Of a stretch of 64,000 nt of DNA, positions 12,738-40,300 are shown one piece after another. The notes below the pieces were generated by a model. The model ran no database searches. It had not been told where the DNA came from and saw nothing but the letters and a program-made list of their open reading frames with translations. This stretch comes from Antedon bifida. Its lineage: Eukaryota > Echinodermata > Crinoidea > Comatulida > Antedonidae. The stretch's first letter is position 1; each line of letters begins with the position of its first letter. Both the position numbers and the translations under genes were made by a program. Location: positions 25,239,001-25,303,000 of the forward strand of contig OY727095.1 in NCBI GenBank assembly GCA_963402885.1. Reading direction: 5' to 3'.

Positions 12738-15004
12738 ACAACTCGTACCTGATTATTTGGACAATTCGTACCTGATTAATTTGGACAACTCGTACCTAAT
12801 AATTTGGCTAAATCATACCTGATTAATTTGGACAACTCGTACCTAATTAAATTGGACAACTCGTACCTAATTAATTTGGCTAACTCGTACCTGATTAATT
12901 TGGACAACTCGTACCTGATTATTTGGACAACTTGTACCTGATTAATTTGGACAACTCGTACCTAATAATTTGGCTAAACCATACCTGATTAATTTGGATA
13001 ACTCGTACCTAATTAATTTGGACAACTCGTACCTGATTAATTTAGCTAACTCGTACCTGATTTATTTGGACAACTCGTACCTGATTAATTTGGACAACTC
13101 GTACCTGATTATTTGGACAACTCGTACCTGATTAATTTGGACAACTCGTACCTAATAATTTGGCTAAATCATACCTGATTAATTTGGACAACTCGTACCT
13201 AATTAAATTGGACAACTCGTACCTAATTAATTTGGCTAACTCGTACCTGAATAATTTGGACAACTCGTACCTGATTATTTGGACAACTTGTACCTGATTA
13301 ATTTGGACAACTCGTACCTAATTAATTTGGACAACTCGTACCTGATTAATTTAGCTAACTCGTACCTGATATATTTGGACAACTCGTACCTAATTAAATT
13401 GAAAAACTCGTACCTGATTAATTTGGACAATTCGTACCTGATTAATTTGGACAACTCGTACCTAATTATTTGGACAACTCGTACCTGATTAATTTGGACA
13501 ACTCGTACCTAATAATTTGGCTAAATCATACCTGATTAATTTGGACAACTCGTACCTAATTAAATTGGACAACTCGTACCTGAATTATTTGGCTAACTCG
13601 TACCTGATTATTTGGACAACTCGTACCTAATTAAATTGAAAAACTCGTACCTGATTAATTTGGACAAATCGTACCTGATTAATTTGGACAACTCGTACCT
13701 AATTATTTCGACAACTCGTACCTGATTAATTTGGACAACTCGTACCTAATAATTTGGCTAAATCATACCTGATTAATTTGGACAACTCGTACCTAATTAA
13801 ATTGGACAACTCGTACCCGATTAATTTGGACAACTCGTACCTAATTAAATTGAACAACTCGTACCCCATTAATTTGGACAACTCGTACCTAATAATTTGG
13901 CTAAATCATACCCGATTAATTTGGACAACTCGTACCTAAATAATTTGGCTAACTCGTACCTGATTAATTTGGACAACTCGTACCTGATTAATTTGGACAA
14001 CTCGTACCTGATTATTTGGACAATTCGTACCTGATTAATTTGGACAACTCGTACCTAATAATTTGGCTAAATCATACCTGATTAATTTGGAAAACTCGTA
14101 CCTAATTAAATTGGACAACTCGTACCTAATTAATTGGGCTAACTCGTACCTGATTAATTTGGACAACTCGTACCTGATTAATTTGGACAACTCGTACCTG
14201 ATTAATTTGGCTAAATCATACCTGATTAATTTGGACAACTCGTACCTAATTAAATTGGACAACTCGTACCCGATTAATTTGGACAACTCGTACCTAATTA
14301 ATTTGGACAACTCGTACCTAATTAATTTGGCTAACTCGTACCTGATTAATTTGGACAACTCGTATCTGATTATTTGGACAACTCGTACCTAATAATTTGG
14401 CTAAATCATACCTGATTAATTTGGACAACTCGTACCTAATTAAATTAGACAACTCGTACCTAATTAATTTGTCTAACTCGTACCTGAATAATTTGGACAA
14501 TTCGTACCTGATTATTTGGACAACTCGTACCTGATTAATTTGGACAACTCGTACCTAATAATTTAGCTAACTCGTACCTGATTTATTTGGACAACTCGTA
14601 CCTGATTAATTTGGACAACTCGTACCTGATTATTTGGACAACTCGTACCTCATTAATTTGGACAACTCGTACCTAATAATTTGGCTAAATCATATCTGAT
14701 TATTTGGACAACTCGTACCTAATAATTTGGCTAAATCATACCTGATTAATTTGGACAACTCGTACCTAATTAAATTGGACAACTCGTACCTAATTAATTT
14801 GTCTAACTCGTACCTGAATAATTTGGACAACTCGTACCTGATTATTTGGACAATTCGTACCTGATTAATTTGGACAACTCGTACCTAATAATTTGGCTAA
14901 ATCATACCTGATTAATTTGGACAACTCGTACCTAATTAAATTGGACAACTCGTACCTAATTAATTTGGCTAACTCGTACCTGATTAATTTGGACAACTCG
15001 TACC

Positions 15005-15030
15005 TGATTATTTGGACCATACCTGATTAA
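15005..15030 (+). other. Out-of-register deletion junction in the satellite
   Basis: ATTTGGACCATACCTG joins the first bases of one core to the CCATACC end of another. Compared with the paralogous string at 12917-12985, 51 bp are missing, which is not a sum of 23- and 24-bp units. This is an end-joining or slippage type of event rather than in-register exchange. Confidence 0.7.
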
Positions 15031-15194
15031 TTTGGATAACTCGTACCTAATTAATTTGGACAACTCGTACCTGATTAATTTAGCTAACTCGTACCTGATT
15101 TATTTGGACAACTCGTACCTGATTAATTTGGACAACTCGTACCTGATTATTTGGACAACTCGTACCTGATTAATTTGGACAACTCGTACCTAAT

Positions 15195-16150
15195 AATTTG
15201 GCTAAATCATACCTGATTAATTTGGACAACTCGTACCTAATTAAATTGGACAACTCGTACCTAATTAATTTGGCTAACTCGTACCTGAATAATTTGGACA
15301 ACTCGTACCTGATTATTTGGACAACTTGTACCTGATTAATTTGGACAACTCGTACCTAATTAATTTGGACAACTCGTACCTGATTAATTTAGCTAACTCG
15401 TACCTGATATATTTGGACAACTCGTACCTAATTAAATTGAAAAACTCGTACCTGATTAATTTGGACAACTCGTACCTGATTAATTTGGACAACTCGTACC
15501 TAATTATTTGGACAACTCGTACCTGATTAATTTGGACAACTCGTACCTAATAATTTGGCTAAATCATACCTGATTAATTTGGACAACTCGTACCTAATTA
15601 AATTGGACAACTCGTACCCGATTAATTTGGACAACTCGTACCTAATTAATTTGGACAACTCGTACCTAATTAATTTGGCTAACTCGTACCTGATTAATTT
15701 GGACAAATCGTACCTGATTATTTGGACAACTCGTACCTGATTAATTTGGACAACTCGTACCTAATTAAATTGGACAACTCGTACCTAATTAATTTGGCTA
15801 ACTCGTACCTGATTAATTTGGACAACTCGTACCTGATTATTTGGACAACTCGTACCTGATTAATTTGGACAACTCGTACCAAATAATTTGGCTAAATCAT
15901 ACCTGATTAATTTGGACAACTCATACCTAATTAAATTGGACAACTCGTACCCGATTAATTTGGACAACACGTACCTAATTAATTTGGACAACTTGTACCT
16001 AATTAATTTGGCTAACTCGTACCTGATTAATTTGGACAACTCGTACCTAATTAAATTGGACAACTCGTACCCGATTAATTTGGACAACTCGTACCTAATT
16101 AATTTGGACAACTCGTACCTGATTAATTTAGCTAACTCGTACCTGATTAA
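15195..16150 (+). repeat. Segment paralogous to 5408-6363
   Basis: Offset 9787. It shares ACCAAATAAT (15878 / 6091), CTCATACC (15921 / 6134), GACAACACG (15964 / 6177) and the ACTTGT unit that follows. A copy of the block-A subfamily therefore lies within the otherwise different 10-24 kb region. Confidence 0.72.
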
Positions 16151-16214
16151 TTTGGACAACTCGTACCTAATTAAATTGGACAACTCGTACCCGAATAATT
16201 TGGACAACTCGTAC

Positions 16215-17430
16215 CTAATAATTTGGCTAAATCATACCTGATTAATTTGGACAACTCGTACCTAATAATTTTGCTATATCATACCTGATTAATTTGGACA
16301 ACTCGTACCTAATTAAATTGGACAAATCGTACCCGATTAATTTGGACAACTCGTACCTAATTAATTTGGACAACTCGTACCTAATTAATTTGGCTAACTC
16401 GTACCTGATTATTTGGACAACTCGTACCTGATTAATTTGGACAACTTCATACCTAATAATTTGGCTAAATCATACCTGATTAATTTGGAAACTTGTTCCT
16501 AATTAAATTGGACAACTCGTACCCGATTAATTTGGCTAACTAGTACCTTATTAATTTGGACAACTCGTACCTGATTATTTGGACAACTTGTACCTGATTA
16601 ATTTGGACAACTCGTACCTAATAATTTGGCTAAATCATACCTGATTAATTTGGACAACTCGTACCTAATTAATTTGGCTAACTCGTACCTGATTAATTTG
16701 GACAACTCGTACCTTATTATTTGGACAATTCGTACCTGATTAATTTGGACAACTCGTACCTAATAATTTGGCTAAATCATACCTGATTAATTTGGACAAC
16801 TCGTACCTAATTAAATTGGACAACTCGTACCTAATTAATTTGGCTAACTCGTACCGGATTAATTTGGACAATTCGTACCTGATTAATTTGGACAACTCGT
16901 ACCTGATTAATTTGGACAACTTGTACCTGATTAATTTGGCTAAATCATACCTGATTAATTTGGATAACTCGTACCTAATTAATTTGGACAACTCGTACCT
17001 GATTAATTTAGCTAACTCGTACCTAATTTATTTGGACAACTCGTACCTAATTAAATTGAAAAATTCGTACCTGATTAATTTGGACAACTCGTACCTGATT
17101 AATTTGGACAACTCGTACGTGATTATTTGGACAACTCGTACCTAATAATTTGGCTAAATCATACCTGATTAATTTGGACAACTCGTACCTAATTAAATTG
17201 GACAACTCGTACCCGATTAATTTGGACAACTCGTACCTAATAATGTGGCTAAATCATACCTGATTAATTTGGACAACTCGTACCTAATTAAATTGGACAA
17301 CTCGTACCAGATTAATTTGGACAACTCGTACCTAATTAATTTGGCTAACTCGTACCTGATTAATTTGGACAACTCGTACCTGATTATTTGGACAACTCGT
17401 ACCAGATTAATTTGGACAACTCGTACCTAA
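16215..17430 (+). repeat. 2.1-kb-period duplication, copy 1
   Basis: Matches 18305-19544 at offset 2090, which becomes 2114 because the second copy has one extra TTAATTCGGAC unit. Markers are TTGCTATATC (16271 / 18361), the 25-bp TTCATACC unit (about 16447 / 18560), GTACCGGATT (16852 / 18966), GTACGTGATT (17116 / 19230) and AATGTGGCTAAATC (17242 / 19356). Confidence 0.8.
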
Positions 17431-18304
17431 TAATTTGGCTAAATCATACCTGATTAATTTGGACAACTCGTACCTAATTAAATTGGACAACTCGTACCCG
17501 AATAATTTGGACAACTCGTACCTAATAATTTGGCTAAATCATACCTGATTAATTTGGACAACTCGTACCTAATAATTTTGCTATATCATACCTGATTAAT
17601 TTGGACAACTCGTACCTAATTAAATTGGACAAATCGTACCCGATTAATTTGGACAACTCGTACCTAATTAATTTGGACAACTCGTACCTAATTAATTTGG
17701 CTAACTCGTACCTGATTAATTCGGACAACTCGTACCTGATTATTTGGACAACTCGTACCTGATTAATTTGGACAACTTCATACCTAATAATTTGGCTAAA
17801 TCATACCTGATTAATTTGGAAACTTGTTCCTAATTAAATTGGACAACTCGTACCCGATTAATTTGGCTAACTAGTACCTTATTAATTTGGACAATTCGTA
17901 CCTGATTATTTGGACAACTTGTACCTGATTAATTTGGACAACTCGTACCTAATAATTTGGCTAAATCATACCTGATTAATTTGGACAACTCGTACCTAAT
18001 TAATTTGGCTAACTCGTACCTGATTAATTTGGACAACTCATACCTTATTATTTGGACAATTCGTACCTGATTAATTTGGACAACTCGTACCTAATAATTT
18101 GGCTAAATCATACTTGATTAATTTGGACAACTCGTACCTAATTAAATTGGACAACTCGTACCTAATTAATTTGGCTAACTCGTACCTGATTAATTTGGAC
18201 AACTTGTACCTAATAATTTGGCTAAATCATACCTGATTAATTTGGACAACTCGTACCTAATTAAATTGGACAACTCGTACCCGATTAATTTGGACAACTC
18301 GTAC

Positions 18305-19544
18305 CTAATAATTTGGCTAAATCATACCGGATTAATTTGGACAACTCGTACCTAATAATTTTGCTATATCATACCTGATTAATTTGGACAACTCGTACCT
18401 AATTAAATTGGACAACTCGTACCCGATTAATTTGGACAACTCGTACCTAATTAATTTGGACAACTCGTACCTAATTAATTTGGCTAACTCGTACCTGATT
18501 AATTCGGACAACTCGTACCTGATTATTTGGACAACTCGTACCTGATTAATTTGGACAACTTCATACCTAATAATTTGGCTAAATCATACCTGATTAATTT
18601 GGAAACTTGTTCCTAATTAAATTGGACAACTCGTACCTGATTAATTTGGCTAACTAGTACCTTATTAATTTGGACAACTCGTACCTGATTATTTGGACAA
18701 CTTGTACCTGATTAATTTGGACAACTCGTACCTAATAATTTGGCTAAATCATACCTGATTAATTTGGACAACTCGTACCTAATTAATTTGGCTAACTCGT
18801 ACCTGATTAATTTGGACAACTCGTACCTTATTATTTGGACAATTCGTACCTGATTAATTTGGACAACTCGTACCTAATAATTTGGCTAAATCATACCTGA
18901 TTAATTTGGACAACTCGTACCTAATTAAATTGGACAACTCGTACCTAATTAATTTGGCTAACTCGTACCGGATTAATTTGGACAATTCGTACCTGATTAA
19001 TTTGGACAACTCGTACCTGATTAATTTGGACAACTTGTACCTGATTAATTTGGCTAAATCATACCTGATTAATTTGGATAACTCGTACCTAATTAATTTG
19101 GACAACTCGTACCTGATTAATTTAGCTAACTCGTACCTGATTTATTTGGACAACTCGTACCTAATTAAATTGAAAAATTCGTACCTGATTAATTTGGACA
19201 ACTCGTACCTGATTAATTTGGACAACTCGTACGTGATTATTTGGACAACTCGTACCTAATAATTTGGCTAAATCATACCTGATTAATTTGGACAACTCGT
19301 ACCTAATTAAATTGGACAACTCGTACCCGATTAATTTGGACAACTCGTACCTAATAATGTGGCTAAATCATACCTGATTAATTTGGACAACTCGTACCTA
19401 ATTAAATTGGACAACTCGTACCAGATTAATTTGGACAACTCGTACCTAATTAATTTGGCTAACTCGTACCTGATTAATTTGGACAACTCGTACCTGATTA
19501 TTTGGACAACTCGTACCAGATTAATTTGGACAACTCGTACCTAA
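18305..19544 (+). repeat. 2.1-kb-period duplication, copy 2
   Basis: Second copy. The TTGCTATATC and TTCATACC markers occur once more between the two copies (17578 and about 17778), so the first few hundred bases of the unit are present three times. Part of this unit (18850-19460) is also present at 62870-63480, offset about 44021. Confidence 0.8.
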
Positions 19545-19559
19545 TAATTTGGCTAAATC

Positions 19560-21400
19560 ATACCTGATTAATTTGGACAACTCGTACCTAATTAAATTGG
19601 ACAACTCGTACCTAATTAATTTGGCTAACTCGTACCTGATTAATTTGGACAACTCGTACCTGATTATTTGGACAATTCGTACCTGACTAATTTGGACAAC
19701 TCGTACCTAATAATTTGGCTAAATCATACCTGATTAATTTGGACAACTCGTACCTAATTAATTTGGACAACTCGTACCTGATTAATTTGGACAACTCGTA
19801 CCTTATTTATTTGGACAACTCGTACCTTATTAATTTGGACAACTCGTACCTGATTATATGGACAACTCGTACCTGATTAATTTGGACAACTCGTACCCGA
19901 TTAATTTGGACAACTCGTACCTAATTAAATTGAACAACTCGTACCCCATTAATTTGGACAACTCGTACCTAATAATTTGGCTAAATCATACCCGATTAAA
20001 TTGGACAACTCGTACCTAATTAAATTGGACAACTCGTACCTAAATAATTTGGCTAACTCGTACCTGATTAATTTGGACAACTCGTACCTGATTAATTTGG
20101 ACAATTCGTACCTGATTAATTTGGACAACTCGTACCTAATAATTTGGCTAAATCATACCTGATTAATTTGGACAACTCGTACCTAATTAAATTGGACAAC
20201 TCGTACCTAATTAATTTAGCTAACTTGTACCTGATTAATTTGGACAACTCGTACCTGATTAATTTGGACAACTCGTACCTAATAATTTGGCTAAATCATA
20301 CCTGATTAATTTCGACAACTCGTACCTAATTAAATTGGACAACTCGTACCCGATTAATTTGGACAACTCGTACCTAATAATTTGGCTAAATCATACCTGA
20401 TTAATTTGGACAACTCGTACCTAATTAAATTGGACAACTCGTACCCGATTAATTTGGACAACTCGTACCTAATTAATTTGGACAACTCGTACCTAATTAA
20501 TTTGGCTAACTCGTACCTGATTAATTTGGACAACTCGTACCTGATTATTTGGACAACTCGTACCTGATTAATTTGGACAACTCGTACCTAATAATTTGGC
20601 TAAATCATACCTGTTTAATTTGGACAACTCGTACCTAATTAAATTGAAAAACTCGTACCTGATTAATTTGGACAACTCGTACCTGATTAATTTGGACAAC
20701 TCGTACCTAATTATTTGGACAACTCGTACCTGATTAATTTGGACAACTCGTACCTAATAATTTGGCTAAATCATACCTGATTAATTTGGACAACTCGTAC
20801 CTAATTAAATTGGACAACTCGTACCCGATTAATTTGGACAACTCGTACCTAATTAAATTGAACAACTCGTACCCCATTAATTTGGACAACTCGTACCTAA
20901 TAATTTGGCTAAATCATACCCGATTAATTTGGACAACTCGTTCCTAATTAAATTGGACAACTCGTACCTAAATAATTTGGCTAACTCGTACCTGATTAAT
21001 TTGGACAATTCGTACCTGATTAATTTGGACAACTCGTACCTGATTATTTGGACAATTCGTACCTGATTAATTTGGACAACTCGTACCTAATAATTTGGCT
21101 AAATCATACCTGATTAATTTGGAAAACTCGTACCTAATTAAATTGGACAACTCGTACCTAATTAATTTGGCTAACTCGTACCTAATTAAATTGGACAACT
21201 CGTACCCGATTAATTTGGACAACTCGTACCTAATAATTTGGCTAAATCATACCTGATTAATTTGGACAACTCGTACCTAATTAAATTGGACAACTCGTAC
21301 CCGATTAATTTGGACAACTCGTACCTAATTAATTTGGACAACTCGTACCTAATTAATTTGGCTAACTCGTACCTGATTAATTTGGACAACTCGTAACTGA
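19560..21400 (+). repeat. Long-range paralogous segment, copy 1
   Basis: Matches about 57660-59560 at offset 38098 rising to 38146. Shared rare units are CCTGACTAATTTGG (19682 / 57780), consecutive GTACCTTATT units (19799 / 57897), TTAGCTAACTTG (20216 / 58338), AATTTCGACAAC (20308 / 58453) and CTCGTTCCTAATT (20938 / 59084). Confidence 0.75.
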
Positions 21401-24400
21401 TTATTTGGACAAGTCGTACCTGATTAATTTGGACAACTCGTACCTAATAATTTGGCTAAATCATACCTGATTAATTTGGACAACTCGTACCTAATTAAAT
21501 TGAAAAACTCGTACCTGATTAATTTGGACAACTCGTACCTGATTAATTTGGACAACTCGTACCTAATTATTTGGACAACTCGTACCTGATTAATTTGGAC
21601 AACTCGTACCTAATAATTTGGCTAAATCATACCTGATTAATTTGGACAACTCGTACCCGATTAATTTGGACAACTCGTACCTAATTAAATTGAACAACTC
21701 GTACCCCATTAATTTGGACAACTCGTACCTAATAATTTGGCTAAATCATACCCGATTAATTTGGACAACTCGTACCTAATTAAATTGGACAACTCGTACC
21801 TGATTAATTTGGACAAATCGTACCTGATTAATTTGGACAACTCGTACCTGATTATTTGGACAATTCGTACCTGATTAATTTGGACAACTCGTACCTAATA
21901 ATTTGGCTAAATCATACCTGATTAATTTGGAAAACTCGTACCTAATTAAATTGGACAACTCGTACCTAATTAATTTGGCTAACTCGTACCTGATTAATTT
22001 GGACAACTCGTACCTGATTAATTTGGACAACTCGTACCTGATTAATTTGGACAACTCATACCTAATAATTTGGCTAAATCATACCTGATTAATTTGGACA
22101 ACTCGTACCTAATTAAATTGGACAACTCGTACCTAATAATTTGGCTAAATCATACCTGATTAATTTGGACAACTCGTACCTAATTAAATTGGACAACTCG
22201 TACCCGATTAATTTGGACAACTCGTACCTAATTAATTTGGACAACTCGTACCTAATTAATTTGGCTAACTCGTACCTGATTAATTTGGACAACTCGTATC
22301 TGATTATTTGGACAACTCGTACCTAATAATTTGGCTAAATCATACCTGATTAATTTGGACAACTCGTACCTAATTAAATTGGACAACTCGTACCTAATTA
22401 ATTTGTCTAACTCGTACCTGAATAATTTGGACAACTCGTACCTGATTAATTTGGACAACTCGTACCTGATTAATTTGGACAACTCGTACCTAATAATTTG
22501 GCTAAATCATACCTGATTAATTTGGACAACTCGTACCTAATTAAATTGGACAACTCGTACCTAATTAATTTGGCTAACTCGTACCTGATTAATTTGGACA
22601 ACTCGTACCTGATTATTTGGACAACTTGTACCTGATTAATTTGGACAACTCGTACCTAATAATTTGGCTAAACCATACCTGATTAATTTGGCTAACTCGT
22701 ACCTGAATAATTTGGACAACTCGTACCTGATTATTTGGACAACTTGTACCTGATTAATTTGGACAACTCGTACCTGATTAATTTGGACAACTCGTACCTG
22801 ATTAATTTGGACAATTCGTACCTGATTAATTTGGACAACTCGTACCTGATTATTTGGACAATTCGTACCTGATTAATTTGGACAACTCGTACCTAATAAT
22901 TTGGCTAAATCATACCTGATTAATTTGGACAACTCGTACCTAATTAAATTGGACAACTCATACCTAATTAATTTGGCTAACTCGTACCTGATTATTTGGA
23001 CAACTCGTACCTGATTAATTTGGAAAACTCGTACCTGATTAATTTGGACAACTCGTACCTAATAATTTGGCTAAATCATACCTGATTAATTTGGACAACT
23101 CGTGCCTAATTAAATTGGACAACTCGTACCCGATTAATTTGGACAACTCGTACCTAATAATTTGGCTAAATCATACCTGATTAATTTGGACAACTCGTAC
23201 CTAATTAAATTGGACAACTCGTACCCGATTAATTTGGACAACTCGTACCTAGTTAATTTGGACAACTCGTACCTAATTAATTTGGCTAACTCGTACCTGA
23301 TTAATTTGGACAACTCGTACCTGATTATTTGGACAACTCGTACCTGATTAATTTGGACAACTCGTACCTAATAATTTGGCTAAATCATACCTGATTAATT
23401 TGGACAACTCGTACCTAATTAAATTGGACAACTCGTACCCGATTAATTTGGACAACTCGTACCTAATAATTTGGCTAAATCATACCTGATTAATTTGGAC
23501 AACTCGTACCTAATTAAATTGGACAACTCGTACCCGATTAATTTGGACAACTCGTACCTGATTAATTTGGACAACTCGTACCTAATAATTTGGCTAAATC
23601 ATACCTGATTAATTTGGACAACTCGTACCTAATTAAATTGAAAAACTCGTACCTAATAATTTGGCTAAATCATACCTGATTAATTTGGACAACTCGTACC
23701 TAATTAAATTGGACAACTCGTACCCGATTAATTTGGACAACTCGTACCTAATAATTTGGCTAAATCATACCTGATTAATTTGGACAACTCCTACCTAATT
23801 AAATTGGACAACTAGTACCCGATTAATTTGGACAACTCGTACTTAATTAATTTGGACAACTCGTACCTAATTAATTTGGCTAACTCGTACCTGATTAATT
23901 TGGACAACTCGTACCTGATTATTTGGACAATTCGTACCTGATTAATTTGGACAACTCGTACCTAATAATTTGGCTAAATCATACCTGATTAATTTGGACA
24001 ACTCGTACCTGATTAATTTGGACAACTCGTACCTGATTAATTTGGCTAACTTGTACCTGATTAATTTGGACAAATCGTACCTGATTATTTGGACAACTCG
24101 TACCTAATTATTTGGAAAACTCGTACCTGATTAATTTGGACAACTCGTACCTAATTAATGTGGCTAAATCATACCTGATTAATTTGGACAATTCATACCT
24201 AATTAAATTGGACAACTCGTACACGATTAATTTGGACAACTCGTACCTAATTAATTTGGACAACTCGTACCTAATTAATTTGGCTAACTCGTACCTGATT
24301 AATTTGGACAACTCGTACCTGATTATTTGGACAACTCGTACCTGATTAATTTGGACAACTCGTACCTAATAATTTGGCTAAATAATACCTGATTAATTTG

Positions 24401-25034
24401 GACAACTCGTACCTAATAATTTGGCTAAATCATACCTGATTAATTTGGACAACTCGTACCTAATTAAATTGGACAACTCGTACCTAATTAATTTGGACAA
24501 CTCGTACCTAATTAAATTGGACAACTCGTACCTAATTAATTTGGCTAAATCGTACCTGATTAATTTGGACAACTCGTACCTAATTAATTTGGACAACTCG
24601 TACCTAATTAAATTGGACAACTCGTACCTAATTAATTTGGCTAACTCGTACCTGATTAATTTGGACAACTCGTACCTTATTAATTTGGACAACTCGTACC
24701 TGATTATTTGGACAACTCGTACCTGATTAATTTGGACAACTCGTACCTAATTAAATTGGACAACTCGTACCCGATTAATTTGGACAACTCGTACCTAATA
24801 ATTTGGCTAAATCATACCCGATTAATTTGGACAACTCGTACCTAATTAAATTGGACAACTCGTACCTAAATAATTTGGCTAACTCGTACCTGATTAATTT
24901 GGACAACTCGTACCTGATTAATTTGGACAACTCGTACCTGATTATTTGGACAACTCGTACCTGATTATTTGGACAACTCGTACCTAATAATTTGGCTAAA
25001 TCATACCTGAATAATTTGGACAACTCGTACCTAA

Positions 25035-25038
25035 TTAA
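25035..25038. repeat. TTAA target-site duplication, left
   Basis: Left copy of the tetranucleotide flanking the element, within the satellite linker CCTAATTAA. TTAA occurs once in most satellite units, so the target site belongs to the host repeat. Confidence 0.88.
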
Positions 25039-25053
25039 AGACCCCTTCCCTGC
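25039..25053 (+). repeat. Terminal inverted repeat, left end
   Basis: AGACCCCTTCCCTGC. It pairs with the inverted right end at 13 of 15 positions; mismatches are at positions 3 and 14. Confidence 0.85.
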
Positions 25054-25061
25054 AATTTTGG

Positions 25062-25070
25062 ACGTTTTTT
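25062..25070 (+). repeat. Subterminal motif ACGTTTTTT, left
   Basis: This 9-mer is also found in inverted orientation at the right end (25641-25649), where it follows the CCCT of the terminal repeat directly. On the left about 10 extra bases lie between. The terminal repeats therefore look longer than 15 bp, with an indel in one arm, and the motif may be part of a transposase-recognition region. Confidence 0.55.
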
Positions 25071-25225
25071 GGAAAATAATACATATATATCACTTTAAAA
25101 ACATTAAACCATGTCATTCCTTGTCTTAAATGTACGTTTTATGGTAAATTATGATAAAAAGTGAGAAACAATGCACTACCTAAGTAGCTCGCGGCGATCG
25201 ACCTCTCGTGGACGGTCTTAGGCCT

Positions 25226-25239
25226 AGCCTAGCTAGGCT
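25226..25239. repeat. 14-bp perfect palindrome inside the transposon
   Basis: AGCCTAGCTAGGCT is its own reverse complement. It sits in a local run of repeated CCTAG/CTAGG motifs (about 25219-25260). It could form a small cruciform or be a remnant of a short internal tandem repeat; no function is implied. Confidence 0.7.
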
Positions 25240-25501
25240 TAGTTTTGTAGGCCTAGCTGGTAAACATCGGTAACGTACGAACATCGTACGCTAGCTATAT
25301 ACCTAGCCTGACGTTGTATAGTTGCTGCATTAATTGTCTTTCTATTTTTGCCAGACTCCGTTGATACAAATTGGGGAAAACCCGGTATTTTCGCTGAAAA
25401 GTTAGGAGTCTTCCATTTGTTTTGGCCTCACGATCGATCGAAAAGTGGGCGAATTACAGGTGAAAAACAAAAATATCAATCAGCGCAATGCATTTTGGGA
25501 T

Positions 25502-25520
25502 TTATAGCGGGCCGCTATAA
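25502..25520. repeat. 19-bp inverted repeat inside the transposon
   Basis: TTATAGCGG and CCGCTATAA are exact reverse complements separated by one G, giving a perfect 9-bp stem. There is no T-tract or neighbouring gene, so I do not call it a terminator. Confidence 0.7.
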
Positions 25521-25640
25521 TTATTAGAATCGACTTATTGTTCACATTTTTAACCGTTTAAAGACGAAAAAAGTTATCGCAATAGGACCATATAGTATTA
25601 TTTGTACATCAAATATAGTTTGTGATCTTAAATTAGATCT

Positions 25641-25649
25641 AAAAAACGT
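25641..25649 (-). repeat. Subterminal motif ACGTTTTTT, right
   Basis: Inverted counterpart of the left subterminal motif. It overlaps the inner two bases of the 15-bp terminal repeat. Confidence 0.55.
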
Positions 25650-25662
25650 AGGGAAGGGGGCT
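25648..25662 (-). repeat. Terminal inverted repeat, right end
   Basis: On the minus strand this reads AGCCCCCTTCCCTAC, the partner of the left terminus. It directly abuts the right TTAA. Confidence 0.85.
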
Positions 25663-25666
25663 TTAA
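25663..25666. repeat. TTAA target-site duplication, right
   Basis: Right copy of the tetranucleotide, followed directly by ATTGGACAACTCG, the remainder of the interrupted A-start satellite unit. Together with the left copy it shows a clean 4-bp duplication with no loss of host sequence. Confidence 0.88.
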
Positions 25667-25669
25667 ATT

Positions 25670-26200
25670 GGACAACTCGTACCCGATTAATTTGGACAAC
25701 TTGTACCTAATAATGTGGCTAAATCATACCTGATTAAATTGGACAACTCGTACCCGATTAATTTGGACATCTCGTACCTAATTAATTTGGACAACTCGTA
25801 CCTAATTAATTTGGCTAAATCGTACCTGATTAATTTGGACAACTCGTACCTGATTATTTGGACAACTCGTACCTGATTAATTTGGACATTTGTACCTAAT
25901 AATTTGGTTAAATCATACCTGATTAATTTGGACAACTCGTACCTAATTAAATTGGACAACTCGTACCTAATTAATTTGGCTAACTCGTACCTAATTAATT
26001 TGGCTAACTCGTACCTGATTAATTTGGACAACTCGTACCTGATTATTTGGACAACTCGTACCTGATTAATTTGGACATTTGTACCTAATAATTTGGCTAA
26101 ATCATACCTGATTAATTTGGACAACTCGTACCTAATTAAATTGGACAACTCGTACCTAATTAATTTGGCTAACTCGTACCTGATTAATTTGGACAACTCG
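25670..26200 (+). repeat. Right flank of the transposon: 189-bp local duplication with short ACATTTGTACC units
   Basis: Two shortened units reading GGACATTTGTACC (25884 and 26073) lie 189 bp apart, a distance equal to five 24-bp and three 23-bp units. I did not see this variant elsewhere in the window, so it is private to the right side of the insertion. The minus strand stays open for 169 codons here only because the 23-bp steps happen to compensate. Confidence 0.65.
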
Positions 26201-26963
26201 TACCTGATTATTTAGACAATTCGTACCTGATTAATTTGGACAACTCGTACCTAATAATTTGGCTAAATCATACCTGATTAATTTGGACAACTCGTACCTA
26301 ATTAATTTGGACAACTCGTCACTAATTAATTTGGCTAACTCGTACCTGATTAATTTGGACAACTCGTACCTTATTAATTTGGACAACTGGTACCTGATTA
26401 TTTGGACAACTCGTACCTGATTAATTTGGACAACTCGTACCTAATTAAATTGGACAACTCGTACCTAATTAAATTGGACAACTCGTACCCGATTAATTTG
26501 GACAACTCGTACCTAATTAAATTGAACAACTCGTACCCCATTAATTTGGACAACTCGTACCTAATAATTTGACTAAATCATACCCGATTAATTTGGACAA
26601 CTCGTACCTAATTAAATTGGACAACTCGTACCTAAATAATTTGGCTAACTCGTACCTGATTAATTTGGACAACTCGTACCTGATTAATTTGGACAACTCG
26701 TACCTGATTATTTGGACAATTCGTACCTGATTAATTTGGACAACTCGTACCTAATAATTTGGCTAAATCATACCTGATTAATTTGGACAACTCGTACCTA
26801 ATTAAATTGGACAACTCATACCTAATTAATTTGGCTAACTCGTACCTGATTAATTTGGACAACTCGTACCTGATTAATTTGGACAACTCGTACCTGATTA
26901 ATTTGGACAACTCGTACCTAATAATTTGGCTAAATCATACCTGATTAATTTGGACAACTCGTA

Positions 26964-29900
26964 CCTAATTAAATTGGACAACTCGTACCCGATTAATTTG
27001 GACAACTCGTACCTAATAATTTGGCTAAATCATACCTGATTAATTTGGACAACTCGTACCTAATTAAATTGGACAACTCGTACCCGATTAATTTGGACAA
27101 CTCGTACCTAATTAATTTGGCTAACTCGTACCTGATTAATTTGGACAACTCGTACCTGATTATTTGGACAACTCGTACCTGATTAATTTGGACAACTCGT
27201 ACCTAATAATTTGGCTAAATCATACCTGATTAATTTGGACAACTCGTACCTAATTAAATTGGACAACTCGTACCCGATTAATTTGGACAACTCGTACCTA
27301 ATAATTTGGCTAAATCATACCTGATTAATTTGGACAACTCGTACCTAATTAAATTGGACAACTCGTACCCGATTAATTTGGACAACTCGTACCTAATAAT
27401 TTGGCTAAATCATACCTGATTAATTTGGACAACTCGTACCTAATTAAATTGGACAACTAATACCCGATTAATTTGGACAACTCGTACTTAATTAATTTGG
27501 ACAACTCGTACCTAATTAATTTGGCTAACTCGTACCTGATTAATTTGGACAACTCGTACCTGATTATTTGGACAATTCGTACCTGATTAATTTGGACAAC
27601 TCGTACCTAATAATTTGGCTAAATCATACCTGATTAATTTGGACAACTCGTACCTAATTAAATTGGACAACCCGTACCTAATTAATTTGGCTAACTCGTA
27701 CCTGATTAATTTGGACAATTCGTACCTGATTAATTTGGACAACTCGTACCTGATTATTTGGACAACTCGTACCTAATTATTTGGACAACTCGTACCTGAT
27801 TAATTTGGACAACTCGTACCTAATATTTTGGCTAAATCATACCTGATTAATTTGGACAACTCGTACCTAATTAAATTGGACAACTCGTACCTAATTAATT
27901 TGGCTAACTCGTACCTGATTAATTTGGACAACTCGTACCTAATAATTTGGCTAAATCATACCTGATTAATTTGGACAACTCGTACCTAATTAAATTGGAC
28001 AACTCGTACCTAATTAATTTGGCTAACTCGTACCTGATTAATTTGGACAACTCGTACCTGATTAAATTGGACAACTCTTACCTGATTATTTGGACAACTC
28101 GTACCTGATTAATTTGGACAACTCGTACCTAATAATTTGGCTAAATCATACCTGATTAATTTGGACAACTCGTACCTAATTAAATTGGACAACTCGTTCC
28201 CGATTAATTTGGACAACTCGTACCTAATAATTTGGCTAAATCAAACCTGATTAATTTGGACAACTCGTACCTAATTAAATTCGACAAGTCGTACCCGATT
28301 AATTTGGACAACTCGTACCTAATTATTTTGGACAACTCGTACCTAATTAATTTGAACAACTCGTACCTGATTATTTGAACAACTCGTACCTGATTAATTT
28401 GGACAACTCGTACCTGATTAATTTGGACAACTCGTACCTAATAATTTGGCTAAATCATACCTGATTAATTTGGACAACTCGTACCTAATTAAATTGGACA
28501 ACTCGTACCCGATTAATTTGGACAACTCGTACCTAATAATGTGGCTAAATCATACCTGATTAATTTGGACAACTCGTACCTAATTAAATTGGACAACTCG
28601 TACCCGATTAATTTGGACAACTAGTACCTAAATAATTTGGACAACTCGTACCTAATTAATTTGGCGAACTCGTACCTGAATAATTTGGACAACTCGTACC
28701 TGATTATTTGGACAACTCGTACCTGATTAATTTGGACAACTCGTACCTAATAATTTGGCTAAATCATACCTGATTAATTTGGACAACTCGTACCTAATTA
28801 AATTGGACAACTCGTACCTAATTAATTTGGCTAACTCGTACCTGATTAATTTGGACAACTCGTACCTGATTATTTGGACAATTCGTACCTGATTAATTTG
28901 GACAACTCGTACCTAATAATTTGGCTAAATCATACCTGATTAATTTGGACAACTCGTACCTAATTAAATTGGACAACTCGTACCTAATTAATTTGGCTAA
29001 CTCGTACCTGATTAATTTGGACAACTCGTACCTTATTAATTTGGACAACTCGTACCTGATTATTTGGACAACTCGTACCCGATTAATTTGGACAACTCGT
29101 ACCTAATTAAATTGGACAACTCGTACCTAATTAAATTGGACAACTCGTACCCGATTAATTTGGACAACTCGTACCTAATTAAATTGGACAACTCGTACCT
29201 AAATAATTTGGCTAACTCGTACCTGATTAATTTGGACAATTCGTACCTGATTAATTTGGACAACTCGTACCTGATTATTTGGACAATTCGTACCTGATTA
29301 ATTTGGACAACTCGTACCTAATAATTTGGCTAAATCATACCTGATTAATTTGGACAACTCGTACCTAATTAATTTGGCTAACTCGTACCTGATTAATTTG
29401 GACAACTCGTACCTGATTAATTTGGACAACTCGTACCTGATTAATTTGGACAACTCGTACCTGATTAATTTGGACAACTCGTACCTGATTAATTTGGACA
29501 ACTCGTACCTAATAATTTGGCTAAATCATACCTGATTAATTTGGACAACTCGTACCTAATTAAATTGGACAACTCGTACCTGATTAATTTGGACAACTTG
29601 TACCTAATAATTTGGCTAAATCATAACTGATTAATTTGGACAACTCGTACCTAATTAAATTGGACAACTCGTACCCGATTAATTTGGACAACTCGTACCT
29701 AATTAATTTGGACAACTCGTACCTAATTAATTTGGCTAACTCGTACCTGATTAATTTGGCTAACTCGTACCTGATTAATTTGGACAACTCGTACCTGACT
29801 ATTTGGACAACTTGTACCTGATTAATTTGGACAACTCGTACCTAATAATTTGGCTAAATCATACCTGATTAATTTGGACAACTCGTACCTAATTAATTTG

Positions 29901-32900
29901 GCTAACTCGTACCTGATTAATTTGGACAACTCGTACCTTATTATTTGGACAATTCGTACCTGATTAATTTGGACAACTCGTACCTAATAATTTGGCTAAA
30001 TCATACCTGATTAATTTGGACAACTCGTACCTAATTAAATTGGACAACTCGTACCTAATTAATTTGGCTAACTCGTACCTGATTAATTTGGACAACTTGT
30101 ACCTGATTAATTTGGCTGAATCATACCTGATTAATTTGGATAACTCGTACCTAATTAATTTGGACAACACGTACCTGATTAATTTAGCTAACTCGTACCT
30201 GATTTATTTGGACAACTCGTACCTAATTAAATTGAAAAACTCGTACCTGATTAATTTGGACAACTCGTACCTGATTAATTTGGACAACTCGTACCTGATT
30301 ATTTGGACAACTCGTACCTATTAATTTGGCTAAATCATACCTGATTAATTTGGACAACTCGTACCTAATTAAATTGGACAACTCGTACCTTATTAATTTG
30401 GACAACTCGTACCTGATTATTTGGACAACTCGTACCCGATTAATTTGGACAACTCGTACCTAATTAAATTGGACAACTCGTACCCGATTAATTTGGACAA
30501 CTCGTACCTAATTAAATTGGACAACTCGTACCCGATTAATTTGGACAACTCGTACCTAATTAAATTGGACAACTCGTACCTAAATAATTTGGCTAACTCA
30601 TACCTGATTAATTTGGACAACTCGTACCTGATTAATTTGGACAACTCGTACCTGATTATTTGGACAATTCGTACCTGATTAATTTGGACAACTCGTACCT
30701 GATTATTTGGACAATTCGTACCTGATTAATTTGGACAACTCGTACCTAATAATTTGGCTAAATCATACCTGATTAATTTGGACAACTCGTACCTAATTAA
30801 TTTGGCTAACTCGTACCTGATTAATTTGGACAACTCGTACCTGATTAATTTGGACAACTCGTACCTGATTATTTTGGACAACTCGTACCTAATAATTTGG
30901 CTAAATCATACCTGATTAATTTAGACAACTCGTACCTAATTAAATTGGACAACTCGTACCTGATTAATTTGGACAACTTGTACCTAATTAAATTGGACAA
31001 CTCGTACCCGATTAATTTGGACAACTCGTACCTAATTAATTTGGACAACTCGTACCTAATTAATTTGGACAACTCGTACCTGATTATTTGGACAACTTGT
31101 ACCTGATTAATTTGGACAATTCGTACCTAATAATTTGGCTAAATCATACCTGATTAATTTGGACAACTCGTACCTAATTAATTTGGCTAACTCGTACCTG
31201 ATTAATTTGGACAACTCGTACCTTATTATTTGGACAATTCGTACCTGATTAATTTGGACAACTCGTACCTAATAATTTGGCTAAATCATACCTGATTAAT
31301 TTGGACAACTCGTACCTAATTAAATTGGCTAACTCGTACCTGATTAATTTGGACAACTCGTACCTTATTATTTGGACAACTCGTACCTGATTAATTTGGA
31401 CAACTCGTACCTGATTAATTTGGACAACTTGTACCTGATTAATTTGGCTAAATCATACCTGATTAATTTGGATAACTCGTACCTAATTAATTTGGACAAC
31501 TTGTACCTGATTAATTTAGCTAACTCGTACCTGATTTATTTGGACAACTCGTACCTAATTAAATTGAAAAACTCGTACCTGATTAATTTGGACAACTCGT
31601 ACCTGATTAATTTGGACAACTCGTACCTAATAATTTGGCTAAATCATACCTGATTAATTTGGACAACTCGTACCTAATTAAATTGGACAACTCGTACCCG
31701 ATTAATTTGGACAACTCGTACCTGATTAATTTAAACAACTCGTACCTAATTAATTTGGCTAAATCATACCTGATTAATTTGGACAACTCGTACCTAATTA
31801 AATTGAAAAACTCGTACCTGATTAATTTGGACAACTCGTACCTAATTATTTGGACAACTCGTACCTGATTAATTTGGACAACTCGTACCTGATTAATTTG
31901 GACAACTCGTACCTAATAATTTGGCTAAATCATACCTGATTAATTTGGACAACTCGTATCTAATTAAATTGGACAACTCGTACCCGATTAATTTGGACAA
32001 CTCGTACCTAATTAAATTGAACAACTCGTACCCCATTAATTTGGACAACTCGTACCTAATAATTTGGCTAAATCATACCCGATTAATTTGGACAACTCGT
32101 ACCTAATTAAATTGGACAACTCGTACCTAAATAATTTGGCTAACTCGTACCTGATTAATTTGGACAAATCGTACCTGATTAATTTGGACAACTCGTACCT
32201 GATTATTTGGACAATTCGTACCTGATTAATTTGGACAACTCGTACCTAATAATTTGGCTAAATCATACCTGATTAATTTGGAAAACTCGTACCTAATTAA
32301 ATTGGACAACTCGTACCTAATTAATTTGGCTAACTCGTACCTGATTAATTTGGACAACTCGTACCTGATTAATTTGGACAACTCGTACCTGATTAATTTG
32401 GACAACTCGTACCTAATAATTTGGCTAAATCATACCTGATTAATTTGGACAACTCGTACCTAATTAAATTGGACAACTCGTACCTAATAATTTGGCTAAA
32501 TCATACCTGATTAATTTGGACAACTCGTACCTAATTAAATTGGACAACTCGTACCCGATTAATTTGGACAACTCGTACCTAATTAATTTGGCTAACTCAT
32601 ACCTGATTAATTTGGACAACTCGTATCTGATTATTTGGACAACTCGTACCTAATAATTTGGCTAAATCATACCTGATTAATTTGGACAACTCGTACCTAA
32701 TTAAATTGGACAACTTGTACCTAATTAATTTGTCTAACTCGTACCTGAATAATTTGGACAACTCATACCTGATTATTTGGACAATTCGTACCTGATTAAT
32801 TTGGACAACTCGTACCTAATAATTTGGCTAAATCATACCTGATTAATTTGGACAAATCGTACCTAATTAAATTGGACAACTCGTACCTAATTAATTTGGC

Positions 32901-35900
32901 TAACTCGTACCTGATTAATTTGGACAACTCGTACCTGATTATTTGGACAACTTGTACCTGATTAATTTGGACAACTCGTACCTAATAATTTGGCTAAACC
33001 ATACCTGATTAATTTGGATAACTCGTACCTAATTAATTCGGACAACTCGTACCTGATTAATTTAGCTAACTCGTACCTGATTTATTTGGACAACTCGTAC
33101 CTGATTAATTTGGACAACTCGTACCTGATTATTTGGACAACTCGAACCTGATTAATTTGGACAACTCGTACCTAATAATTTGGCTAAATCATACCTGATT
33201 AATTTGGACAACTCGTACCTAATTAAATTGGACAACTCGTACCTAATTAATTTGGCTAACTCGTACCTGAATAATTTGGACAACTCGTACCTGATTATTT
33301 GGACAACTTGTACCTGATTAATTTGGACAACTCGTACCTAATTAATTTGGACAACTCGTACCTGATTAATTTAGCTAACTCGTACCTGATTTATTTGGAC
33401 AACTCGTACCTAATTAAATTGAAAAACTTGTACCTGATTAATTTGGACAATTCGTACCTGATTAATTTGGACAACTCGTACCTAATTATTTGGACAACTC
33501 GTACCTGATTAATTTGGACAACTCGTACCTAATAATTTGGACAACTCGTACCTGATTAATTTAGCTAACTCGTACCTGATTTATTTGGACAACTCGTACC
33601 TAATTAAATTGAAAAACTCGTACCTGATTAATTTGGACAACTCGTACCTGATTAATTTGGACAACTCGTACCTAATTATTTGGACAACTCGTACCTGATT
33701 ACTTTGGACAACTCGTACCTAATAATTTGGCTAAATCATACCTGATTAATTTGGACAACTCGTACCTAATTAAATTGGACAACTCGTACCCGATTAATTT
33801 GGACAACTCGTACCCCATTAATTTGGACAACTCGTACCTAATAATTTCGCTAAATCATACCCGATTAATTTGGACAACTCGTACCTAATTAAATTGGACA
33901 ACTCGTACCTAAATAATTTGGCTAACTCGTACCTGATTAATTTGGACAAATCGTACCTGATTAATTTGGACAACTCGTACCTGATTAATTTGGACAACTC
34001 GTACCTAATTAATTTGGACAACTCGTACCTGATTAATTTAGCTAACTCGTACCTGATTTATTTGGACAACTCGTACCTAATTAAATTGAAAAACTCGTAC
34101 CTGATTAATTTAGACAACTCGTACCTGATTAATTTGGACAACTCGTACCTAATTATTTGGACAACTCGTACCTGATTAATTTGGACAACTCGTACCTAAT
34201 AATTTTGCTAAATCATACCTGATTAATTTGGACAACTCGTACCTAATTAAATTGGACAACTCGTACCCGATTAATTTGGACAACTCGTACCTAATTAAAT
34301 TGAACAACTCGTACCCCATTAATTTGGACAACTCGTACCTAATAATTTGGCTAAATCATACCCGATTAATTTGGACAACTCGTACCTAATTAAATTGGAC
34401 AACTCGTACCTGAATAATTTGGCTAACTCGTACCTGATTATTTGGACAACTTGTACCTGATTAATTTGGACAACTCGTACCTAATTAATTTGGACAACTC
34501 GTACCTGATTAATTTAGCTAACTCGTACCTGATTTATTTGGACAACTCGTACCTAATTAAATTGAAAAACTCGTACCTGATTAATTTGGACAACTCGTAC
34601 CTGATTAATTTGGACAACTCGTACCTAATTATTTGGACAACTCGTACCTGATTAATTTGGACAACTCGTACCTGATTAATTTGGACAACTCGTACCTAAT
34701 AATTTGGCTAAATCATACCTGATTAATTTGGACAACTCGTACCTAATTAAATTGGACAACTCGTACCCGATTAATTTGGACAACTCGTACCTAATTAAAT
34801 TGAACAACTCGTACCCCATTAATTTGGACAACTCGTACCTAATAATTTGGCTAAATCATACCCGATTAATTTGGACAACTCGTACCTAATTAAATTGGAC
34901 AACTCGTACCTAAATAATTTGGCTAACTCGTACCTGATTAATTTGGACAACTCGTACCTGATTATTTGGACAATTCGTACCTGATTAATTTGGACAACTC
35001 GTACCTAATAATTTGGCTAAATCATACCTGATTAATTTGGAAAACTCGTACCTAATTAAATTGGACAACTCGTACCTAATTAATTTGGCTAACTCGTACC
35101 TGATTAATTTGGACAACTCGTACCTGATTAATTTGGACAACTCGTACCTGATTAATTTGGACAACTCGTACCTAATAATTTGGCTAAATCATACCTGATT
35201 AATTTGGACAACTCGTACCTAATTAAATTGTACAACTCGTACCTAATAATTTGGCTAAATCATACCTGATTAATTTGGACAACTCGTACCTAATTAAATT
35301 GGACAACTCGTACCCGATTAATTTGGACAACTCGTACCTAATTAATTTGGCTAACTCGTACCTGATTAATTTGGACAACTCGTATCTGATTATTTGGACA
35401 ACTCGTACCTAATAATTTGGCTAAATCATACCTGATTAATTTGGACAACTCGTACCTAATTAAATTGGACAACTTGTACCTAATTAATTTGTCTAACTCG
35501 TACCTGAATAATTTGGACAACTCGTACCTGATTATTTGGACAATTCGTACCTGATTAATTTGGACAACTCGTACCTAATAATTTGGCTAAATCATACCTG
35601 ATTAATTTGGACAAATCGTACCTAATTAAATTGGACAACTCCTACCTAATTAATTTGGCTAACTCGTACCTGATTAATTTGGACAACTCGTACCTGATTA
35701 TTTGGACAACTTGTACCTGATTAATTTGGACAACTCGTACCTAATAATTTGGCTAAACCATACCTGATTAATTTGGATAACTCGTACCTAATTAATTCGG
35801 ACAACTCGTACCTGATTAATTTAGCTAACTCGTACCTGATTTATTTGGACAACTCGTACCTGATTAATTTGGACAACTCGTACCTGATTATTTGGACAAC

Positions 35901-37299
35901 TCGTACCTGATTAATTTGGACAACTCGTACCTAATAATTTGGCTAAATCATACCTGATTAATTTGGACAACTCGTACCTAATTAAATTGGACAACTCGTA
36001 CCTAATTAATTTGGCTAACTCGTACCTGAATAATTTGGACAACTCGTACCTGATTATTTGGACAACTTGTACCTGATTAATTTGGACAACTCGTACCTAA
36101 TTAATTTGGACAACTCGTACCTGATTAATTTGGACAACTCGTACCTAATTAAATTGGACAACTCGTACCTAATTAATTTGGCTAACTCGTACCTGATTAA
36201 TTTGGACAACTCGTACCTGATTATTTGGACAACTTGTACCTGATTAATTTGGACAACTCGTACCTAATAATTTGGCTAAACCATGCCTGATTAATTTGGA
36301 TAACTCGTACCTAATTAATTTGGACAACTCGTACCTGATTAATTTAGCTAACTCGTACCTGATTTATTTGGACAACTCGTACCTGATTATTTGGACAACT
36401 CGTACCTGATTAATTTGGACAACTCGTACCTAATAATTTGGCTAAATCATACCTGATTAATTTGGACAACTCGTACCTAATTAAATTGGACAACTCGTAC
36501 CTAATTAATTTGGCTAACTCGTACCTGAATAATTTGGACAACTCGTACCTGATTATTTGGACAACTTGTACCTGATTAATTTGGACAACTCGTACCTAAT
36601 TAATTTGGACAACTCGTACCTGATTAATTTAGCTAACTCGTACCTGATTTATTTGGACAACTCGTACCTAATTAAATTGAAAAACTCGTACCTGATTAAT
36701 TTGGAAAACTCGTACCTGATTAATTTAGCTAACTCGTACCTGATTTATTTGGACAACTCGTACCTGATTATTTGGACAACTCGTACCTGATTAATTTGGA
36801 CAACTCGTACCTAATTAAATTGGACAACTCGTACCCGATTAATTTGGACAACTCGTACCTAATTAAATTGAACAACTCGTACCCCATTAATTTGGACAAC
36901 TCGTACCTAATAATTTGGCTAAATCATACCCGATTAATTTGGACAACTCGTACCTAATTAAATTGGACAACTCGTACCTAAATAATTTGGCTAACTCGTA
37001 CCTGATTAATTTGGACAACTCGTACCTGATTAATTTGGACAACTCGTACCTGATTATTTGGACAATTCGTACCTGATTAATTTGGACAACTAGTACCTAA
37101 TAATTTGGCTAAATCATACCTGATTAATTTGGAAAACTCGTACCTAATTAAATTGGACAACTCGTACCTAATTAATTTGGCTAACTCGTACCTGATTAAT
37201 TTGGACAACTTGTACCTAAATAATTTGGCTAACTCGTACCTGATTAATTTGGACAACTCGTACCTGATTAATTTGGACAACTCGTACCTGATTATTTGG
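26964..37299 (+). repeat. 10.4-kb segmental duplication, copy 1
   Basis: Matches 37381-47692 at an offset of 10417 bp, falling to 10393 bp after a one-unit (24-bp) difference near 29560/39968. Rare private variants are shared at the same offset: CTAATACCC then GTACTTAATT (about 27456-27493 / 37873-37910), TCAAACCTG (28251 / 38668), GGCGAACTCG (28662 / 39079), GGCTGAATCA (30114 / 40507) and CTAGTACC (37091 / 47484). By eye I noticed only about ten single-base differences over 10.3 kb, so the duplication is very recent, or the assembly duplicated it. Confidence 0.9.
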
Positions 37300-37380
37300 C
37301 TAACTCGTCCCTGATTAATTTGGACAACTCGTACCTGATTATTTGGACAACTTGTACCTGATTAATTTGGACAACTCGTC
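37300..37380 (+). repeat. Junction sliver between the 10.4-kb copies, from another subfamily
   Basis: About 80 bp carrying two units with the rare CTCGTCCCT variant. The same pair, equally spaced around an ACTTGT unit, is seen at 1621-1697, 3356-3432, 7159-7235, 50815-50892, 52550-52626 and 55664-55740, but not elsewhere in the 10.4-kb copies. It marks the recombination point and suggests that the exchange involved, or was patched with, a subfamily otherwise confined to the blocks near the two ends of the window. Confidence 0.65.
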
Positions 37381-40300
37381 CCTAATTAAATTGGACAACT
37401 CGTACCCGATTAATTTGGACAACTCGTACCTAATAATTTGGCTAAATCATACCTGATTAATTTGGACAACTCGTACCTAATTAAATTGGACAACTCGTAC
37501 CCGATTAATTTGGACAACTCGTACCTAATTAATTTGGCTAACTCGTACCTGATTAATTTGGACAACTCGTACCTGATTATTTGGACAACTCGTACCTGAT
37601 TAATTTGGACAACTCGTACCTAATAATTTGGCTAAATCATACCTGATTAATTTGGACAACTCGTACCTAATTAAATTGGACAACTCGTACCCGATTAATT
37701 TGGACAACTCGTACCTAATAATTTGGCTAAATCATACCTGATTAATTTGGACAACTCGTACCTAATTAAATTGGACAACTCGTACCCGATTAATTTGGAC
37801 AACTCGTACCTAATAATTTGGCTAAATCATACCTGATTAATTTGGACAACTCGTACCTAATTAAATTGGACAACTAATACCCGATTAATTTGGACAACTC
37901 GTACTTAATTAATTTGGACAACTCGTACCTAATTAATTTGGCTAACTCGTACCTGATTAATTTGGACAACTCGTACCTGATTATTTGGACAATTCGTACC
38001 TGATTAATTTGGACAACTCGTACCTAATAATTTGGCTAAATCATACCTGATTAATTTGGACAACTCGTACCTAATTAAATTGGACAACCCGTACCTAATT
38101 AATTTGGCTAACTCGTACCTGATTAATTTGGACAATTCGTACCTGATTAATTTGGACAACTCGTACCTGATTATTTGGACAACTCGTACCTAATTATTTG
38201 GACAACTCGTACCTGATTAATTTGGACAACTCGTACCTAATATTTTGGCTAAATCATACCTGATTAATTTGGACAACTCGTACCTAATTAAATTGGACAA
38301 CTCGTACCTAATTAATTTGGCTAACTCGTACCTGATTAATTTGGACAACTCGTACCTAATAATTTGGCTAAATCATACCTGATTAATTTGGACAACTCGT
38401 ACCTAATTAAATTGGACAACTCGTACCTAATTAATTTGGCTAACTCGTACCTGATTAATTTGGACAACTCGTACCTGATTAAATTGGACAACTCTTACCT
38501 GATTATTTGGACAACTCGTACCTGATTAATTTGGACAACTCGTACCTAATAATTTGGCTAAATCATACCTGATTAATTTGGACAACTCGTACCTAATTAA
38601 ATTGGACAACTCGTACCCGATTAATTTGGACAACTCGTACCTAATAATTTGGCTAAATCAAACCTGATTAATTTGGACAACTCGTACCTAATTAAATTCG
38701 ACAAGTCGTACCCGATTAATTTGGACAACTCGTACCTAATTATTTTGGACAACTCGTACCTAATTAATTTGAACAACTCGTACCTGATTATTTGAACAAC
38801 TCGTACCTGATTAATTTGGACAACTCGTACCTGATTAATTTGGACAACTCGTACCTAATAATTTGGCTAAATCATACCTGATTAATTTGGACAACTCGTA
38901 CCTAATTAAATTGGACAACTCGTACCCGATTAATTTGGACAACTCGTACCTAATAATGTGGCTAAATCATACCTGATTAATTTGGACACCTCGTACCTAA
39001 TTAAATTGGACAACTCGTACCCGATTAATTTGGACAACTCGTACCTAATTAATTTGGACAACTCGTACCTAATTAATTTGGCGAACTCGTACCTGAATAA
39101 TTTGGACAACTCGTACCTGATTATTTGGACAACTCGTACCTGATTAATTTGGACAACTCGTACCTAATAATTTGGCTAAATCATACCTGATTAATTTGGA
39201 CAACTCGTACCTAATTAAATTGGACAACTCGTACCTAATTAATTTGGCTAACTCGTACCTGATTAATTTGGACAACTCGTACCTGATTATTTGGACAATT
39301 CGTACCTGATTAATTTGGACAACTCGTACCTAATAATTTGGCTAAATCATACCTGATTAATTTGGACAACTCGTACCTAATTAAATTGGACAACTCGTAC
39401 CTAATTAATTTGGCTAACTCGTACCTGATTAATTTGGACAACTCGTACCTTATTAATTTGGACAACTCGTACCTGATTATTTGGACAACTCGTACCCGAT
39501 TAATTTGGACAACTCGTACCTAATTAAATTGGACAACTCGTACCTAATTAAATTGGACAACTCGTACCCGATTAATTTGGACAACTCGTACCTAATTAAA
39601 TTGGACAACTCGTACCTAAATAATTTGGCTAACTCGTACCTGATTAATTTGGACAATTCGTACCTGATTAATTTGGACAACTCGTACCTGATTATTTGGA
39701 CAATTCGTACCTGATTAATTTGGACAACTCGTACCTAATAATTTGGCTAAATCATACCTGATTAATTTGGACAACTCGTACCTAATTAATTTGGCTAACT
39801 CGTACCTGATTAATTTGGACAACTCGTACCTGATTAATTTGGACAACTCGTACCTGATTAATTTGGACAACTCGTACCTGATTAATTTGGACAACTCGTA
39901 CCTGATTAATTTGGACAACTCGTACCTAATAATTTGGCTAAATCATACCTGATTAATTTGGACAACTCGTACCTGATTAATTTGGACAACTTGTACCTAA
40001 TAATTTGGCTAAATCATAACTGATTAATTTGGACAACTCGTACCTAATTAAATTGGACAACTCGTACCCGATTAATTTGGACAACTCGTACCTAATTAAT
40101 TTGGACAACTCGTACCTAATTAATTTGGCTAACTCGTACCTGATTAATTTGGCTAACTCGTACCTGATTAATTTGGACAACTCGTACCTGACTATTTGGA
40201 CAACTTGTACCTGATTAATTTGGACAACTCGTACCTAATAATTTGGCTAAATCATACCTGATTAATTTGGACAACTCGTACCTAATTAATTTGGCTAACT

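Follow-up and report, generated by a model that had tools for sequence, protein, structure and literature searches.

A young, high-copy TTAA-targeting MITE family, most likely of Kolobok type, in Antedon bifida, with one insertion carried in a 24-bp satellite array

The stretch of the Antedon bifida genome analyzed here, a window of 64,000 nucleotides (C8:25239001-25303000 of a 315.6 Mb assembly in which eleven large contigs of 19-37 Mb make up nearly the whole), raises the question of what kind of sequence interrupts its tandem satellite array, and how that sequence came to be there. In this study, we show that the interruption is a copy of a real, young, high-copy family of nonautonomous TTAA-targeting DNA transposons, that is, a miniature inverted-repeat transposable element (MITE), a clear case of a type of mobile DNA that is in itself ordinary. 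Our preferred reading, to which we give a probability of about three in four, is that this young MITE inserts at TTAA by means of a trans-acting transposase that most likely belongs to the Kolobok superfamily, and that it entered the satellite once and was then copied together with the array.

The features of the insertion are given in Table 1. The TTAA duplication and the 15-bp terminal inverted repeats that the first-pass annotation had described were confirmed at exactly the same coordinates. When the family consensus was shuffled 1000 times with its dinucleotides and its first and last base preserved, the best shuffle matched at 11 of 15 positions, below the agreement between the actual termini. 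With the TTAA included, the inverted repeat extends over 25 nt at 84% identity. The shared subterminal motifs claimed in the same annotation proved to be ACGTTTTTT, present in inverted orientation near both ends, and the left one is possibly a transposase-binding site. It was also correct that the insertion lacks an open reading frame, as the longest stop-to-stop frame lying wholly within it has 71 aa. A search of Rfam gave one match only, far below threshold (E 5.5).

Table 1. Features of the insertion and of the array around it (positions are those of the window)
Feature	Position	Strand	Basis or remark
24-bp tandem satellite array holding the insertion	3..64000	.	TRF, period 24, 2691.7 copies
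Left TTAA target site duplication	25035..25038	+	TTAA at both edges also in 38/38 other copies scored
MITE copy	25039..25662	+	624 bp; 2-bp deletion and 4 substitutions against the 626-bp consensus of 36 dispersed copies
Left terminal inverted repeat, AGACCCCTTCCCTGC	25039..25053	+	13/15 against the right end
Left subterminal ACGTTTTTT motif	25062..25073	+	inverted partner 25638-25649, 92%
Diverged repeat of the block at 25059-25080 (left subterminal)	25131..25152	+	same orientation, 82% over 22 nt
Sequence similar to a ZNF143/THAP11 (SBS/M4) promoter site	25486..25508	-	20/23 to the consensus assumed by us
Right subterminal ACGTTTTTT motif	25638..25649	-	inverted partner of 25062-25073, 92%
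Right terminal inverted repeat, AGCCCCCTTCCCTAC	25648..25662	-	13/15 against the left end; AGCCCCCTTCCCTAC is given as the reverse complement
Right TTAA target site duplication	25663..25666	+	same basis as left TTAA

The claim that removal of the insertion restores an exact satellite unit held for the unit itself. When the two flanks are rejoined with a single TTAA, they yield CTCGTACCTAATTAAATTGGACAACTCG, a 28-base satellite stretch with 246 further occurrences in the window, whereas a longer join of 62 bases has no occurrence elsewhere in the window. Hence the restoration is exact for the satellite unit but not for the longer neighbourhood.

The case for a MITE rests on the other copies in the host genome. 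Using the 624 bases as query, we obtained 2125 candidates and scored the best 40; these are all full-length matches and comprise the window copy, two further copies in the same array (100% identity) and 37 dispersed copies (99%), and two partial relatives were also among the matches listed. From the 39 loci retrieved, one copy nested in an older relative (L009, with TTAA on both sides as judged by eye) was left out of the count. Each of the remaining 38 copies, drawn from the best 40 of 2125, is flanked by TTAA on both sides and has AG...CT ends; none overran the boundaries, lacked TTAA at its edges or failed to share the termini, any of which the first-pass annotation had named as evidence against its proposal. 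The 36 dispersed copies among these best-scoring matches are all 626 bp long and differ from their consensus at 0-3 bases, with a mean pairwise difference of 0.49%, a value that favours the youngest copies since it was taken from the best-scoring of 2125 candidates, the whole family being older on average than it implies. Moreover, the terminus pattern TTAAAGVCCCCTTCCCTV occurs 1219 times in the genome and its reversed control not once. Among 100 of these 1219 sites that were listed, all on contig C1, we found 36 inward-facing pairs; the elements that they delimit measure 573-630 bp, and 21 have a length of exactly 626 bp. The element is thus short and noncoding, bears terminal inverted repeats and a target duplication, and is present in many near-identical copies, and the TTAA-targeting MITE suggested from the window sequence is borne out by the 38/38 copies with TTAA and by the 1219 terminus matches against none in the control. 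Because many copies are near-identical, the transposase is suggested to have been active recently in the host genome.

Some termini read TTAAAGACCCCTTCCCTA instead of the young-family form, and they belong to an older sibling subfamily. The variant AGACCCCTTCCCTA accounts for 8 of the 28 termini that were left unpaired among the 100 sites listed, and seven of these eight loci can be aligned with the consensus along 187-630 bases at ~86-94% identity; the remaining locus (L054) keeps only ~31 bases before another repeat begins. Four older copies were aligned, and in the two that retain both ends (L056 and L059) AGACCCC stands at either end; in each of the two, one flank retains an unaltered TTAA and the opposite flank has a single changed base (TTAT or TTTA). 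Since AGACCCC is thus found at both ends of these older copies, the right-end C of the young subfamily probably represents the derived state. Another, more distant relative, with 76% identity over 411 aligned positions, begins with AGTTGCATTCTCTGC after TTAA. As judged from the divergence of the sibling subfamily (~86-94%) and of this 76% relative, the family comprises older and younger layers. Two young copies (L009 and L026) are nested in, or adjacent to, older members of the family.

The target site alone does not identify the superfamily. PiggyBac also targets TTAA and its ends begin with CCC, TTAA is likewise the target of Sola3, and the Kolobok DDE transposase is marked by a C/DxxH motif, often together with a THAP domain. 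Membership of the piggyBac superfamily would account for the target duplication found in 38/38 copies scored, which resembles that of piggyBac MITEs; however, all 38 begin with AG and end with CT, so that the CCC start is absent, as the first-pass annotation had already remarked of the window copy. A further TTAA-targeting group such as Sola3 would explain the same target preference, and we consider it highly improbable. TTAA together with 5'-RR...YY-3' ends are the features by which Kolobok is separated from piggyBac (PMC9587614), and both are present in 38/38 copies scored, which makes a piggyBac origin unlikely. Similarly, the ten full-length Xenopus Kolobok elements in one table of PMC6004289 all have AG ends. 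Kolobok is therefore a better fit than piggyBac, given TTAA plus AG...CT ends, and we infer a Kolobok-type superfamily; the initial suggestion that the element may belong to Kolobok is favoured by the same ends (PMC6004289; PMC9587614). The closest parallel drawn here is with the T2-MITE/Kolobok (XKol) elements of Xenopus, which share the TTAA target and AG ends and are likewise noncoding, high in copy number, very similar among young copies and divided into several subfamilies (PMC6004289). The T2 ends read AGGRR, in contrast to AGACC/AGCCC here. In the T2 member Xmix an internal segment has been amplified as a simple repeat, whereas the MITE described here sits inside an unrelated satellite. 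We found no literature report that treats a crinoid genome and Kolobok together.

A rival that is serious on the grounds of size and ends is that the 626-bp unit is not a MITE formed by internal deletion but derives from a composite transposon of the KolobokP type, as a long terminal direct repeat (LTDR) standing solo. Such LTDRs are described as having terminal inverted repeats of their own of 11-18 bp and RR...YY ends, and as being ~450 or 660 bp long and often solo, and KolobokP is reported from three echinoderm classes (PMC9587614). The unit here is alike in its short terminal inverted repeats (~13-15 bp), its RR...YY ends, its size of several hundred bases and its occurrence in an echinoderm, but at 626 bp it is near, not at, the size classes described (PMC9587614). 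Against this reading, in two pairs of copies on C1 that share a strand and are ~8 kb apart, the sequences enclosed are mutually unmatched (no match at E 1e-5 beyond MITE-related pieces), and each copy in both pairs has its own ends, so that an LTDR-INT-LTDR arrangement, which KolobokP would show, is rejected for these two pairs only. For the His-Me finger homing endonuclease that belongs to KolobokP, a profile of the homing-endonuclease zinc loop (PF05551) gave no matches, but its control matched in none of 14 genomes. We regard a solo LTDR as quite unlikely and prefer a MITE that would be mobilised by a Kolobok-type transposase.

If the MITE is mobilised in trans, its autonomous partner might be marked by termini without a partner of the same length class nearby. 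The 28 unpaired sites among the 100 listed on C1 comprise the eight variant termini, one site (C1:7082900) that is a full copy already among those scored, and 19 others. Reading 1 kb inward from these 19 revealed no longer coding element: 14 are near-full-length MITEs (at least 611 of 626 positions), three are truncated, one is rearranged and one is split. The idea that these unpaired sites mark a long autonomous element was rejected, and in the loci examined no transposase could be linked to the family's ends. The split one (L092, with 66 bp kept; L101, G000:C1:18139620-18149600) is an older MITE copy interrupted by 4.5 kb of inserted DNA, in which there is a tandem array with a 147-bp unit; the same 13 MITE bases stand on either side of the insertion, and in the 10 kb examined around this copy no frame of at least 120 aa was found. 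Apart from this, the locus L060 (G000:C1:21734100-21744000) contains, at 3439-9901, what is likely a separate DNA transposon, bounded by long inverted repeats of 499 nt (96%) that reach the end of the locus. A frame of 562 aa between these repeats looks like a DDE transposase by eye; no Pfam family matches it at E <= 1, and against solved structures there is only a weak zinc-finger match (E 0.0024, residues 398-426). We did not adopt this frame as the partner of the MITE; within L060, the terminus pattern of the family is confined to a MITE copy some kilobases away.

With regard to the satellite, the array holds three identical 624-bp copies, at C8:25143766, C8:25214845 and C8:25264039, the last being the window copy. 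They share the 2-bp deletion and the four substitutions that set them apart from the dispersed consensus; the deletion and three of the substitutions occur in 0/36 dispersed copies, and the fourth substitution in 2/36. Because three identical copies in one array share private changes, they are most simply explained by a single insertion and later duplication of the array blocks around it. The window copy and C8:25214845 have near-identical surroundings, with 2 differences in 10,000 positions of the right flanks and 2 differences in the first 8,371 positions of the left flanks. The third copy, C8:25143766, has an insertion site identical to the other two; in an ungapped comparison its right flank diverges from theirs after ~190 bases and its left flank after ~1.2 kb. 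Beyond these points its gapped identity to the window is ~89-91%, no better than that of array parts generally, and array duplication as its source would account for the shared site and changes. In the same window, one run of rare satellite variants is found twice, at 28233-28383 and 38650-38800, 10,417 bases apart, as expected of block duplication within the array. Landing in repeats is not unique to the window copy, since two dispersed copies also lie in repetitive DNA as judged by mutually similar left and right flanks: in L044 both flanks look tandem-repetitive, and in L041 they resemble each other.

We propose that a transposase acting in trans, most likely from a Kolobok element, would recognise the AG(A/C)CCCCTTCCCT ends, perhaps aided by the ACGTTTT subterminal motifs, excise the 626-bp element and insert it at TTAA with duplication of those four bases. 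The window copy would have entered a TTAA within a 24-bp satellite unit on a single occasion, and satellite turnover would then have copied the block that carried it, giving rise to the three identical copies in one array. This would be a clean case of a transposon inside a satellite that was apparently copied by the turnover of the satellite itself, in which the passenger MITE lets the scale and age of array duplication be read. The partner transposase, if found, could supply a new active TTAA system.

The segment resembling a ZNF143/THAP11 site within the element is suggestive only, a lead and not a result. Its score in Table 1 was obtained with what we take to be the ZNF143/Staf consensus and was reached by 0/1000 shuffles. 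Against the motifs SBS2 and SBS1 as printed in PMC7154149, the same segment scores 18/27 and 16/27, values reached by 7/1000 and 184/1000 shuffles, respectively. All four older copies in the alignment have the site, though one of them carries an extra base within it, whereas the more distant relative (76% over 411 positions) lacks it, through loss or from the outset. The M4 motif is bound by THAP11 (PMC5006282), and Kolobok transposases usually carry a THAP domain (PMC6004289). It is conceivable, though very doubtful, that a recently exploding Kolobok-type MITE with a ZNF143/THAP11-like site may seed promoter or chromatin-loop sites genome-wide; if so, the THAP domain of Kolobok could tie this site to the transposon's own control.

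Finally, the contig C27 (15,844 bp) of the same assembly contains a frame, read by eye as cytochrome b, with 8 AAA and 8 TGA codons. Several of its AAA codons fall at what we take to be conserved asparagines (in HANGAS, ITNLL, SVDNATL, GSNNP and PANPL), and AAA read as asparagine points to the mitochondrial code of echinoderms and so to an echinoderm host.
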